Positions 17,657 to 22,512 of a DNA stretch of 25,344 nt are shown here, in pieces. Source of the DNA: a virus; the IMG/VR virus record IMGVR_UViG_3300044681_000343, positions 1-25,344 of that record; one strand, given 5' to 3'. A program made the translations under genes and the position numbers. Every line of letters starts with the position of its first letter. Positions within the stretch are counted from its first letter, which is position 1. The notes beneath the pieces were generated by a model. The model saw nothing but the letters and a program-made list of their open reading frames with translations. It made no database searches and was not told the origin of the DNA.

Positions 17657-17664
17657 TGTAAATA
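17657..17664 (+). promoter_or_regulatory. Late-promoter-like element TGTAAATA, 4 nt before ATG
   Basis: The plus strand reads TGTAAATA then CGTT and the ATG at 17669. If used like a T4 late promoter, transcription would begin at or next to the start codon, giving a leaderless mRNA. No Shine-Dalgarno sequence is seen upstream of this ATG. The same spacing is seen before sod and kdsA. Confidence 0.4.
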
Positions 17665-17668
17665 CGTT

Positions 17669-17956
17669 ATGTTCTTGAGAGAATACAAAGAAAAAAACAT
17701 CTATGTCAGACATAGCAAAACAGGTAAAGAACACACGTATAGTAGAGAAAAGATCTATGCAGCGTTTGCCTGTGATAACTGCGGTCGAGAGTTCTCTAGG
17801 GATTTAAAGCACATGGATAGGAAACGACTCAGTGATAACTATTTTCACTGTTGTTCCAGCTGTGATGCTAAGAAATTCGCTCAACGCAAAGGCGTAGAAC
17901 GCAAGAAGATCTGGGATATGCCAGCTAGCTTAGATTGGCCAGTTTCTAAATATTAG
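17669..17956 (+). CDS. Small putative zinc-binding protein (95 aa), CxxC...CCxxC
   Basis: This is one of two plus-strand genes. The 95-aa product is basic and has a CDNC pair (Cys35, Cys38) and a CCSSC cluster (Cys61, Cys62, Cys65) 22 residues later. This spacing is typical of a zinc ribbon or treble-clef fold. Basic residues around the cysteines (GREFSRDLKHMDRKR) would suit nucleic-acid binding. It is too short for an HNH nuclease and lacks the HNH histidines. No Shine-Dalgarno sequence is seen; a TGTAAATA element ends 4 nt before the ATG. The stop overlaps that of iscA by 3-4 nt in convergent orientation. It may be a late transcription or recombination accessory factor, but this is a guess; the zinc site is inferred from spacing alone. 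Confidence 0.75.
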   Translation: MFLREYKEKNIYVRHSKTGKEHTYSREKIYAAFACDNCGREFSRDLKHMDRKRLSDNYFHCCSSCDAKKFAQRKGVERKKIWDMPASLDWPVSKY

Positions 17957-18279
17957 ACTCTGAAACTTTCTCCGCAGCCACAGCGATCTTTTTCTGCACT
18001 ATTGCGGAATTCGAATCCTTCGTTCAGACCCTGTTTTACATAATCTATTTCTAGATCTTTAAAATAAGGCAAATGTTTATCAGAAATAAAAATACTGAAA
18101 CTATCGAATACATAGGTCTTTCCAGCAGATTTAGGATCTACTGTGTCTAGATATTTAAAGGTATAGGCCAACCCGCTGCACCCTGTGGTACGCACACCTA
18201 TAGTTACGCCTATGCCCTTACCTCTTTTTTCAAGAGATTGGCGTATCTTTTGTCTTGCTATTTCTGTTACAGTGATCAT
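17953..18279 (-). CDS. A-type iron-sulfur carrier (IscA/HesB-like)
   Basis: This 108-aa protein matches the A-type carrier family, which binds an iron-sulfur cluster and passes it to target apoproteins. The three ligand cysteines are all present and spaced as in E. coli IscA: Cys34 in TTGCSGLAYTF, and Cys100 and Cys102 in the C-terminal DRCGCGESF. Length is normal for the family. The central FDSFSIFISDKHLPYF matches the IscA core. It lies 22 nt downstream of sod in the same direction, so the two probably share a transcript. HesB/IscA-like genes are known from aquatic phages, where they are thought to maintain host or phage Fe-S enzymes during infection. No scaffold protein or cysteine desulfurase is seen here, so it must rely on the host for assembly. 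Confidence 0.93.
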   Translation of the reverse strand: MITVTEIARQKIRQSLEKRGKGIGVTIGVRTTGCSGLAYTFKYLDTVDPKSAGKTYVFDSFSIFISDKHLPYFKDLEIDYVKQGLNEGFEFRNSAEKDRCGCGESFRV

Positions 18280-18301
18280 CTCGGTGCGTCTGCCTGAGAG
18301 T

Positions 18302-18859
18302 TTAAACTCCTAGTCTGATATTAACAACTTCCCAATTGATAATACGCCAAATATTTTGTAGATATTTGGCTTTGTCCTGCTGATAATCGAGAGCCCAAGC
18401 ATGTTCCCACCAATCTACTAACAGAGCAATCTTCATAGATTTTTTATATTCGTGATTTGGTATAGTATGTAGTTCGCCAGAAGTGTCCATATAAACCCAT
18501 CCGCTGCCTTGTATAGCCATTGCTTCTTTTTCAAATGCTTCTTTGAATTTTTCAAAACTACCATACTTCTCATCTATGACGGATTTACTGATTCCCTTGG
18601 GTTTATTAGCAGCTTGGGGAGGGATTAAGTTGGCAAAGAAAATATTGTGCAGAACAGCACCGCCATAATTAAAATCAGCGTCACCTTCTCCTTTATTATA
18701 ACGTTCAGAATATTTGGCAGCGAGACCGTCGTAGTGATACTTAATAGTGTCCTCGCTCATAACAGGCGCTAATTCATCTTTACCAAATTTAAGTTTTTCT
18801 TGGTAAATTTCTCTGTTATCGGAAGATTCTTTTAGACTTTTAATAAAATGTAGCGTCAT
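18302..18859 (-). CDS. Fe/Mn-family superoxide dismutase (divergent)
   Basis: The 185-aa protein should convert superoxide to oxygen and hydrogen peroxide. All four metal ligands of the family are visible: His42 (KYHYDG), His71 (GAVLHNIFF), Asp149 and His153 (VDWWEHAW), with the conserved GSGW (118-121), NW (175-176) and the gateway Tyr50. The core aligns with E. coli SodB from KDELAPVMSEDTIKYHYDGL onwards. Differences: the second His of the YHYGKHH segment (E. coli His30) is Leu46 here; the N-terminal outer-sphere Gln/His position before LH is Ala; and a His (His136, in IPNHE) takes the place of the MnSOD Gln, as in some archaeal/cambialistic enzymes. There is an N-terminal extension of about 20 residues and no signal peptide, so it is cytoplasmic. 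Metal preference cannot be told. SOD is rarely reported in T4-like phages, to my knowledge. Confidence 0.92.
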   Translation of the reverse strand: MTLHFIKSLKESSDNREIYQEKLKFGKDELAPVMSEDTIKYHYDGLAAKYSERYNKGEGDADFNYGGAVLHNIFFANLIPPQAANKPKGISKSVIDEKYGSFEKFKEAFEKEAMAIQGSGWVYMDTSGELHTIPNHEYKKSMKIALLVDWWEHAWALDYQQDKAKYLQNIWRIINWEVVNIRLGV

Positions 18860-18863
18860 CCTG

Positions 18864-18879
18864 TATTTACCGCTAAATA
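18864..18879. promoter_or_regulatory. Back-to-back late-promoter-like pair between sod and the dockerin gene
   Basis: The 16 bases TATTTACCGCTAAATA form a near-palindrome whose two arms are each a TAAATA core pointing outwards: GGTAAATA on the minus strand towards sod (4 nt before its ATG) and GCTAAATA on the plus strand towards the dockerin-like gene (18 nt before its ATG, with an AAGGAG ribosome binding site between). The 38-nt divergent gap holds nothing else. This would allow both genes to be switched on together late in infection. Confidence 0.5.
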
Positions 18880-18897: not shown

Positions 18898-19206
18898 ATG
18901 GAAATCATTATCGCACTCGTCGCTATTGTAGCTATTGCTGCTCTAATCTATTTTAATAGATCTGCGAAAAGTCTTGATATCAACAACGACGGTAAAGTTG
19001 ATTTGGCAGACGCCAAGGCTGCTGTTGACAATACAGTAGTCGGAGTAACTGCGGCTGCAGACGTTAACAAAGACGGAGTAGTTGATGCTAAAGACGCAGA
19101 AGTAGTTGTTGAAGCTGCCAAGGAACAAGTCAAAAAGGCAGCAACGAAGACCAAAGCTGCTGCTAAGAAGGCAACAACTCGCGGCCGCAAGCCAAAGGCT
19201 CAATAA
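18898..19206 (+). CDS. Membrane-anchored dockerin/EF-hand protein with Lys/Ala-rich tail
   Basis: The 102-aa product has three parts. Residues 2-20 are a hydrophobic segment (EIIIALVAIVAIAALIYF), either a membrane anchor or an uncleaved signal. Two dockerin-type calcium loops follow: DINNDGKVDLAD and DVNKDGVVDAKD, each with Asp/Asn at loop positions 1, 3, 5, 9 and 12 and the DG turn. The last 30 residues are a low-complexity Lys/Ala tail (KKAATKTKAAAKKATTRGRK) like histone H1 or bacterial H1-like proteins. The hydrophobic segment has no cleavage site I can recognise. Translation has a strong AAGGAG ribosome binding site. The 3' end overlaps the convergent uvdE gene by 44 nt. Plausible roles are binding the inner membrane and DNA, or holding calcium at the envelope; neither is shown. 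No cohesin partner is visible in this window. Confidence 0.85.
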   Translation: MEIIIALVAIVAIAALIYFNRSAKSLDINNDGKVDLADAKAAVDNTVVGVTAAADVNKDGVVDAKDAEVVVEAAKEQVKKAATKTKAAAKKATTRGRKPKAQ

Positions 19207-20221
19207 CTTTAGCCTGTTCATAGAGTGCAAAGCTGGCCAAATTCTTGGCCTTGCTTTCGCACATTATATCTGCATAATCTCTAAATCGCAGGGCCCATTC
19301 GTTGGATTTATTGTTCCAATAAAAATCTGAATGGGCTCTTAGTTTGGATTTTTTATAGCCTAGTTCTAACAGACGGTTCATATCCGGCAATATGTCTGTA
19401 TTGTGACTTGTAAGAAGATCTTCTCGACTTACGCTGTAGTGTATAACAGGTCTACGAGTACCACGCCAACTGTCGACGATACGCTTGAATCTGTCATCTG
19501 TGGGTTCGATATATTCGCCAGTTTTTACCCAATGATGATGGATATCTAGAACCAGCGCCAGGTCGTTAACAAGTTCCAGACTGGCTTCGATTCCCCAGGA
19601 GATTTCATCGTTTTCGATTGTAATGGTATTTCTTGCTTCTGGTGTGAGTCGAGACAAAGCGGCTCGAATACCTGCTGGACCTTGTCGTCCAGATATGTGG
19701 ACATTGATTTTGAAATCTTGGAAAGTCTGTCCGTAGCCCATCCACCTCGCCATGTCCACATGATATTCAAATTCCTCTATTGAGCGATTAACAATATCTG
19801 GGTTATCGCTTGCCAGGACAGTAAACTGACCAGGATGAAAACTAAGGCGAACATCACGCGAACGGGCCACGTCACCCAATCTTGAAAAAGCTCTCTCGCA
19901 GTAAGCCCGTACATCGTATTGCCGCCAAAACCAGCCCCAAGTAGGCTCAGTGTATACAGGCAGTATATCACTACTGAGTCGTACCATTCTAAGATCTTCA
20001 TCTAATACTCCCACACGTTCTACTAGTATGTGGCAGGCAGCGATGTTCTGTTCCATCAACGACCATAGCTTTTCGCAGGCCACGTCTTTAGTCTGTCTAT
20101 TTAACCAAGCGACAGTGGTGCTGCCAGTATTATATTTCTTGCAGTCGTCTTTGGGTTTGATACCATCTACTTGAGATGTAAAGTCGATCCATTTGCAGGC
20201 GAAGCCGATTCGTTTTGGCAT
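19163..20221 (-). CDS. uvdE: UV damage endonuclease (UvdE/UvsE)
   Basis: This TIM-barrel endonuclease would nick DNA just 5' of UV photoproducts and start alternative excision repair. From the ATG at 20221 it is 352 aa, somewhat longer than compact bacterial UvdE. Family motifs are present in order: N-terminal RIGFACKWIDF, SFHPGQFTVLAS (metal-site His), FKINVHISGRQG (KxNxH), ITIENDEISWG (Glu-Asn-Asp/Glu metal site), LDIHHHW and AHSDFYW. A frame extends 6 codons further to a TTG at 20239, but the ATG gives the natural MPKRIGFAC start. The 5' end overlaps the phosphomannomutase gene by 55 nt and the 3' end overlaps the convergent dockerin gene by 44 nt. T4 uses DenV for the same damage, so this is a functional replacement by an unrelated enzyme. 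It is probably co-transcribed from the sigma70 promoter upstream of queD. Confidence 0.95.
   Translation of the reverse strand: MPKRIGFACKWIDFTSQVDGIKPKDDCKKYNTGSTTVAWLNRQTKDVACEKLWSLMEQNIAACHILVERVGVLDEDLRMVRLSSDILPVYTEPTWGWFWRQYDVRAYCERAFSRLGDVARSRDVRLSFHPGQFTVLASDNPDIVNRSIEEFEYHVDMARWMGYGQTFQDFKINVHISGRQGPAGIRAALSRLTPEARNTITIENDEISWGIEASLELVNDLALVLDIHHHWVKTGEYIEPTDDRFKRIVDSWRGTRRPVIHYSVSREDLLTSHNTDILPDMNRLLELGYKKSKLRAHSDFYWNNKSNEWALRFRDYADIMCESKAKNLASFALYEQAKVIEPLACGRELLPS
19229..19257 (+). terminator. Possible hairpin terminator after the dockerin gene
   Basis: On the plus strand, AAAGC-t-GGCCAA, a 4-nt loop (ATTC), then TTGGCC-tt-GCTTT forms a strong stem with a small bulge, 22 nt after the dockerin gene's stop. 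Only a short U run (GCTTTCGC) follows, so it is a weak intrinsic terminator at best. It also lies inside the uvdE coding region on the other strand, so it may simply be a coding coincidence. Confidence 0.3.
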
Positions 20222-20910
20222 TGTGTTAATAGTTCCCAAGTATGTGTCCAGTCTCTAACATTATAACATTGTCCGCGATTGTTGTCAACGATAGCTTTGG
20301 CCAATGAGTAGTCATTGCCACTTTCGTCCATTCTATCTCCGAAAAATATTAGCTTTCCAGACTTAAGGTAATCCAAAACTTGGCTCTTGTCTTTTCCGTA
20401 CTCAAATATATCAATGCCCGTTTCACCACCCACTGCTGCCTGTACATTTGGCCACTGCTCGTTTATTCTTTTAGCTAACTTAATTCGTTCGTTGGACTGT
20501 TTGTCCCATTCGAAATAATCAGTTCTTTCTGATCCTACAGCGTTACGTCCGACTATGGAAAAATTTAACATTCCGATGCGTTCTTCAAAATGCTTACCAT
20601 ACTTTTTGTCGTAATGGGTTTTATATAGTTCATTTTCTAAGAATAGCCAGAGGTCTTCTGGGCATTGCCATTCGCTTTTGTAGATGCATTCGTGTTCGCA
20701 ATAGATAGCATTGCCTGAACAGTTGAAAGAATATTCGACTCGGTCTAAAATATCTTCGCCTAACTGTTCTAAGGTCTTTGCGTAGTCACTACCTGTAACT
20801 AAACACACTCTATTAGTTTCACAAAAGTCTAAAAACCAATCTTCGAATTTCGAATCTATCTGACCTCTACTAGGAGTCAGTGTTCCATCAACATCAAACA
20901 AATAAATCAT
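20167..20910 (-). CDS. HAD-superfamily phosphomannomutase, eukaryotic PMM type
   Basis: The 247-aa protein follows the eukaryotic phosphomannomutase (PMM1/PMM2) family of HAD enzymes, which interconvert mannose-6-phosphate and mannose-1-phosphate for GDP-mannose synthesis. Matches in order: FDVDGTLTPSR (Asp6 nucleophile, Asp8 acid/base), GSDYAKTLEQLGEDIL (40-54; PMM2 GGSDFEKVQEQLGNDV), GMLNFSIVGR with Arg122, SERTDYFEWD with Arg129, Arg142 (PMM2 Arg141 position), GGETGIDIFEYGKDKS (Asp167) and FFGDRMDESGNDY (190-201). One phosphate-binding Ser of PMM2 (SFD) is Gly here (GID), so a related sugar-phosphatase role is possible. Length fits the family. The last ~16 residues are an extra tail encoded within the uvdE overlap. 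It overlaps the upstream glycosyltransferase by ATGA, which suggests a shared job in sugar metabolism. Confidence 0.85.
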   Translation of the reverse strand: MIYLFDVDGTLTPSRGQIDSKFEDWFLDFCETNRVCLVTGSDYAKTLEQLGEDILDRVEYSFNCSGNAIYCEHECIYKSEWQCPEDLWLFLENELYKTHYDKKYGKHFEERIGMLNFSIVGRNAVGSERTDYFEWDKQSNERIKLAKRINEQWPNVQAAVGGETGIDIFEYGKDKSQVLDYLKSGKLIFFGDRMDESGNDYSLAKAIVDNNRGQCYNVRDWTHTWELLTQCQNESASPANGSTLHLK

Positions 20911-22504: not shown

Positions 22505-22512
22505 TATTTACC
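22505..22512 (-). promoter_or_regulatory. Late-promoter-like element GGTAAATA, 4 nt before kdsA
   Basis: The minus strand reads GGTAAATA then TCTC and the kdsA ATG. The TAA within it is also the stop codon of the 52-aa gene (TGG TAA), so coding constraint explains part of the motif. The position, identical to those of sod and the 17669 gene, and the lack of a clear Shine-Dalgarno sequence make it worth listing. Confidence 0.35.

Follow-up and report, generated by a model that had tools for sequence, protein, structure and literature searches.

Our results suggest that a superoxide dismutase (SOD) gene probably heads an Fe-S supply operon in phages, with SOD protecting the clusters while the genes behind it build or deliver them. 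The main evidence comes from gene order. Among 119 distinct genes retrieved with SOD queries alone (duplicates removed and at least 1.5 kb of downstream sequence required), 114 are followed downstream by an Fe-S assembly gene on the same strand; these loci are interrelated and the counts are therefore not independent. The most likely role of the SOD-Fe-S unit, we infer, is to shield Fe-S enzymes and to replenish their clusters.

The window and its phage

The window, i.e., the whole stretch of DNA analyzed here, is a virus record of 25.3 kb. It is probably a fragment of a jumbo T4-related phage, because the nearest isolate-phage match of its clamp loader lies in the PA5oct-like Pseudomonas jumbo phages (56%) and because contigs bearing relatives reach 357 kb. 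The region of the SOD gene contains the following features:

17669..17956, plus strand: ORF95, a small Cys-rich protein, convergent with IscA and a conserved neighbor of the carrier gene
17953..18279, minus strand: A-type Fe-S carrier, IscA-like, 108 aa, CxnCGC (profiles, Cys pattern)
18280..18301, minus strand: SOD-IscA junction, 22 bp, where the IscU scaffold gene sits in close relatives
18302..18859, minus strand: gene for the Fe/Mn superoxide dismutase (185 aa), heading the unit (profiles, ligands, AlphaFold2 model)
18864..18869, minus strand: TAAATA box that resembles a T4 late promoter and ends 4 nt upstream of the SOD ATG
18898..19206, plus strand: small EF-hand/dockerin-like protein, divergent from SOD and a conserved neighbor in many relatives
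19163..20239, minus strand: UvdE-type UV endonuclease, conserved, upstream of SOD

The preliminary description of this DNA had placed SOD next to an IscA-type carrier, and the two genes indeed share one strand, with 22 bp from the SOD stop to the IscA start. The carrier matches PF01521 (E=9e-14; 52.1 bits against a cut-off of 26.3) and TIGR00049 (80.9 against 58.8 bits) and contains the Cys-X(n)-Cys-Gly-Cys pattern. Its top-scoring equivalog is that of IscA (TIGR02011), yet the score of 112.1 bits is lower than the cut-off of 150.6. The protein is an A-type Fe-S carrier by these measures and falls short of the IscA equivalog.

A TAAATA box was found at -10 to -15 before SOD in 108 of 118 relatives, relative to 14 expected after shuffling. 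In the window, boxes ending 4 nt before an ATG precede ORF95 (17659-17664, plus strand), SOD (minus strand, listed above) and KdsA (22505-22510, minus strand), and none precedes IscA. The presence of the box before SOD and its absence before IscA fit late transcription that would run from the SOD promoter through the carrier on one transcript. We take T4 geometry to put the late start at or next to the SOD ATG, which would yield a leaderless mRNA; such spacing at ORF95, SOD and KdsA would give leaderless late mRNAs.

Fe-S assembly genes behind phage SOD genes

When all loci are considered, an Fe-S gene lies downstream of SOD in 123 of 128, every time on the same strand and at a median of 143 bp from the end of the SOD match. 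An A-type carrier was present near SOD in each of the first 80 viral loci. The usual orders are SOD-IscU-IscA, with IscU sitting between SOD and IscA in most relatives, and SOD-ErpA. A second large group presents SOD, then ORF95 on the opposite strand, then ErpA. In two close relatives of the window (L002 and L003), 1 bp separates the SOD stop from the ATG of IscU. The pairing of SOD with an Fe-S gene on one strand, noted in the preliminary description, is real and widely conserved. The SOD-IscA unit that it put forward needs amending: the pairing of SOD with Fe-S genes is widespread, but bare SOD-IscA is not the usual arrangement, since IscU or ErpA intervenes or follows.

Because most relatives carry IscU between SOD and IscA, or ErpA after SOD, the window represents a reduced form of the unit, without IscU. 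The IscU gene is absent from the window and present in L002 and L003, whose SODs are respectively 87% and 86% identical to that of the window. Another record (L081) likewise has no IscU, and IscU was detected in 19 of the 27 records searched. IscS is absent from the window as well, and the set of IscS, IscU and chaperones with IscA that defines a bacterial isc operon is not found there. No intact cysteine desulphurase was identified in the ISC-type phages searched, and their sulphur would therefore come from a host enzyme.

Several Fe-S systems stand behind phage SODs: IscU-IscA, ErpA, SufC-SufD or the full SUF operon. In one phage, L337 (7378-13149), a complete SUF operon, SufB-SufC-SufD-SufS-SufE/T fusion-SufA, lies directly behind the SOD. 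L063, whose SOD is 79% identical to that of the window, presents the order SufC-SufD-SufS-like-SOD-ErpA-IscU-IscA, and L155 the order SOD-SufB-SufC-SufS-SufE-Grx4-ErpA, with frames broken in places. The type of Fe-S neighbor switches repeatedly on the SOD tree, where the starred branches force at least six changes of the ErpA label. Part of this switching may have arisen from a larger ancestral cluster, like that of L063, from which different lineages lost different genes.

We also noted several particular cases. The SufS-like protein of L063 (4988-5992) has apparently lost, as judged by eye, its PLP lysine and catalytic cysteine and could be a pseudo-enzyme. In L289 (5823-7235), an intein-like insert of about 340 aa interrupts IscU at a conserved Cys. 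The sufBCDS-iscU genes of Microcystis phage MaAM05 (L399, MW495066) look bacterial and the record is perhaps not a phage; it was set aside. Clamp loaders 77-78% identical to that of the window were found in L334-L336, L338 and L359, with SUF genes about 1.8 kb beyond. This GroES-gp44-SufB order suggested that SUF lies just past the left end of the window, a proposal that is unsupported: among 24 records from phages of the window type and their relatives, a single one contained SUFBD.

An independent check supports the link. Four contigs longer than 100 kb that were fetched via IscA (L135, L136, L115 and L092; two of them, G001 and G009, are near-identical) present no SOD within 6 kb of IscA; all four encode SOD elsewhere, each time with ErpA as the next gene. 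Most long records of this group encode two carriers, one IscA-like and one ErpA-like. The records are mostly fragments, and some observations speak against the link: SOD was not found in the SUF- and radical-SAM-rich genomes G058 (328 kb, 22 radical-SAM matches), G050 and G057, and it was detected in only 5 of 20 records selected by SufB, which are mostly fragments.

Radical-SAM enzymes as likely clients

We observed that phages with Fe-S assembly genes present a much higher median density of radical-SAM matches than phages without them (respectively, 4.8 and 0.28 per 100 kb; P = 1e-5; Mann-Whitney test treating related genomes as independent; isolate phage C48C1, with IscU and one radical-SAM match, was excluded). 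Up to 17 radical-SAM matches per record were found in SOD/IscU phages and up to 23 in SUF phages, whereas isolate phages that have no Fe-S assembly genes yielded 0-5. A search of 14 isolate phages, C48C1 among them, recovered no A-type carrier. In G014, about 15 radical-SAM genes and other small enzymes occupy an island of about 36 kb (L381 and L382; 36-72 kb), and none of the radical-SAM genes of this island has a clear equivalog match. These results suggest that radical-SAM enzymes are likely clients of the phage Fe-S assembly genes. Two purified radical-SAM enzymes and radical-SAM-dependent pathways of E. coli resisted superoxide and peroxide (PMC9576991). Since the radical-SAM enzymes tested resist superoxide, the protected target may be other clusters, assembly intermediates or freed iron.

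The same resistance could favor a different role for SOD: a general defense against reactive oxygen species (ROS) that keeps the infected host alive in the face of light, grazers or respiration, with the adjacency to Fe-S genes reflecting an old hot spot of auxiliary genes. Profile searches identified QueD, KdsA and PMM genes along with UvdE in the SOD region, and SOD stands without Fe-S assembly or radical-SAM genes in Paride (a PA5oct-like phage) and in Vibrio phage 2.275.O. Host protection is also how the SODs of freshwater phages were read (Kavagutti et al. 2019, PMC6802176). Although these observations give it some weight, we consider this explanation rather unlikely: the same-strand Fe-S gene behind 114 of 119 SOD genes is kept when the Fe-S system changes, and the SOD stop can be as close as 1 bp to the IscU start.

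The SOD protein

The SOD of the window matches both PF02777 (E=3.8e-24) and PF00081, the latter barely above its cut-off. Its metal ligands are His42, His71, Asp149 and His153, and it has Tyr50 (equivalent to Tyr34), Leu46 (equivalent to His30) and His136 (equivalent to the Gln of MnSOD). The AlphaFold2 monomer model presents a mean pLDDT of 90.7 and resembles Fe/Mn SODs of the PDB (E ~1e-15; TM 0.74-0.84). Ligands, profiles and fold place the protein among the SodFMs, and dismutase activity is predicted.

The preliminary description had recognized a divergent Fe/Mn SOD with four metal ligands, Leu for His30 and His for the Gln of MnSOD, all of which extend to the relatives. A set of 137 distinct phage SOD genes shows no variation at the four ligands, at Tyr34, at the interface Glu or at Leu30; all but one (136) encode the C-terminal water-coordinating His in place of the Gln of MnSOD. 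Position XD-2 is Leu in 126 of the 137, and Ala occupies the position of Tyr163 in 124. Phage SODs present Gly at the N-terminal Gln position of SodFM2 and His at the C-terminal Gln position of SodFM1, and thus have neither Gln that characterizes these classic Mn and Fe SODs. The median dN/dS of phage SODs is 0.21, a value that lends weak support since dS is near saturation.

The motif HXXXHH is replaced by HXXXL[A/Y/S] in all 137 phage SODs. The preliminary description took the residues of this SOD as a hint of a separate phage subfamily. They are present as described, but a C-terminal His as water ligand combined with the loss of HXXXHH is the published signature of SodFM4 (Sendra et al. 2023, PMC10172142) and is not unique. 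Phage SODs depart from this signature in that Leu has replaced the first member of the HH pair as well, and they form a branch of their own among the sequences sampled. Viruses are unmentioned in the SodFM4 paper (PMC10172142), which also reports Leu at XD-2 in the cambialistic SodFM1 of S. aureus. The Leu at XD-2 of phage SODs weakly predicts cambialism.

These substitutions raise the possibility that the SOD fold is non-dismutating and serves another role, e.g., as an Fe/Mn-binding metallochaperone feeding the carrier. The replacement of the second-shell His30 and of Tyr163 would be in line with such a role, as would the near-constant proximity of Fe-S genes. It appears improbable, however, considering that the four metal ligands, the water-coordinating His, Tyr34 and the interface Glu have been kept virtually without exception and that HXXXHH is likewise missing from published SodFM4 enzymes, including several with assay data (PMC10172142).

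A further possibility is that SOD and IscA serve virion assembly, e.g., the metal loading of the adjacent giant tail fiber, whose gene follows SOD-IscA within about 0.4 kb in the window and lies nearby in most relatives. This seems very improbable: ORF95 stands on the opposite strand between the fiber gene and SOD-IscA, L337 carries a whole SUF operon at this place, and IscA is remote from the SOD locus in G001, G002, G006 and G009.

Distribution and evolution of the SOD family

The preliminary description stated that SOD is rarely reported in T4-like phages. SOD is not rare in the phages studied here, as shown by our scan of viral contigs, which yielded relatives of this SOD family in at least 583 IMG/VR stretches, and by the SODs of freshwater phages (PMC6802176) and of PA5oct-like isolates. 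In INPHARED, the convincing phage matches to the window SOD were the PA5oct-like phages and Vibrio phage 2.275.O. The SOD and IscU matches annotated as Listeria, Staphylococcus, Enterococcus and Acinetobacter phages had weak identity or cellular annotation, look like host DNA and were excluded. The PA5oct SOD, used as a viral query, recovered just one further locus. The SODs of the PA5oct-like phages (Wroclawvirus, Arenbergviridae: Paride, Callisto and MIJ3) are related to that of the window (39% identity), whereas their gene context is different: SOD lies beside ClpS, Hsp20 and FtsH genes.

In the phylogenetic tree with bacterial and viral homologs, the phage SODs group apart from the sampled cellular SODs, on one side of a branch with support of 95/92, in agreement with the separate phage subfamily suspected in the preliminary description. 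This branch adjoins a myxobacterial group lacking HH, in a tree that contains no labeled SodFM4 references and in which Vibrio phage 2.275.O and PA5oct form long branches. The best full-length cellular match is 36% identical. Two matches are closer. One is L155, which is binned as a bacterium and is a phage contig with terminase, gp32 and helicase genes. The other is L154 (1-1841), a short contig of a Polaromonas MAG, in which an incomplete SOD of the phage type runs into ErpA, followed by AnmK and an M23 peptidase; it represents either an assembly chimera or a genuine exchange at erpA.

The preliminary description named as its refutation a single, recent acquisition of sod from one host clade, with the gene missing from close relatives. 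We reject this scenario as very improbable: nothing was found in its favor, relatives are numerous, and both the tree and the identities contradict it in the sampled genomes.

A proposed role in cofactor supply and its protection

We propose that late transcription of the SOD-first operon probably starts at the TAAATA-type promoter immediately upstream of SOD, with the A-type carrier made from the same transcript. SOD would remove superoxide, which destroys exposed [4Fe-4S] clusters and frees iron. IscU/IscA, ErpA or, in some phages, SUF would assemble clusters and pass them on to enzymes synthesized in the course of infection, the chief recipients being the phage's own radical-SAM enzymes. 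With IscU lost at the window locus, IscA would use the host IscU/IscS or a copy elsewhere in the genome. A bolder version of this proposal, which we advance as a tentative possibility, is that jumbo phages of a widespread lineage bring a dedicated Fe-S factory into oxic cells: SOD would be functionally, and perhaps physically, coupled to IscU/ErpA/SUF, loading a radical-SAM arsenal with [4Fe-4S] clusters late in infection as host metabolism and host SOD fail.

Bacterial ISC/SUF operons encode homologs of the IscU, IscA, ErpA and SufBCDSE proteins of these phages, but ISC-type phages have no IscS. The SOD-first order also differs from the gene order of the isc and suf operons of E. coli.

Parts of this system are known. 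Nishimura et al. (2017, PMC5332604) described marine T4-like environmental viral genomes in which ATC/IscU occurs with as many as 12 radical-SAM genes; their concept of Fe-S management by viruses matches ours, with phage IscU and A-type carriers alongside many radical-SAM clients. Unlike in those genomes, SOD heads the Fe-S unit here and complete SUF operons occur; the word "superoxide" is absent from PMC5332604. NifU, IscA and GrxD are listed as common phage proteins in Kieft 2021 (PMC8190135). The freshwater phages of Kavagutti et al. (2019) similarly carry SOD, among ROS-defense genes, whereas the terms "Fe-S" and "iron-sulfur" are absent from PMC6802176. In the passages searched, none of these three studies couples SOD to Fe-S assembly, and we found no report of such coupling in phages in the literature, including that on phage SUF and PA5oct-like SOD. 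IscU/ATC with radical SAM (2017) and freshwater-phage SOD (2019) were thus known earlier.

Until now, phage SOD was interpreted as a gene of general stress defense, and phage Fe-S genes counted as auxiliaries in their own right, whereas here they constitute one conserved unit, in which several Fe-S systems have been exchanged behind the same SOD and which accompanies unusually many radical-SAM enzymes. Our analysis further delineates a family of phage SODs whose second shell is altered, and it draws attention to the chemistry of the radical-SAM islands. These results suggest that these large, mostly environmental phages equip the cells they infect with a cofactor supply that comes with its own protection. 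If this is true, phages manage both cofactor supply and its protection during infection, and it becomes testable whether phages in oxic waters are held back in their replication by oxidants that damage Fe-S clusters.
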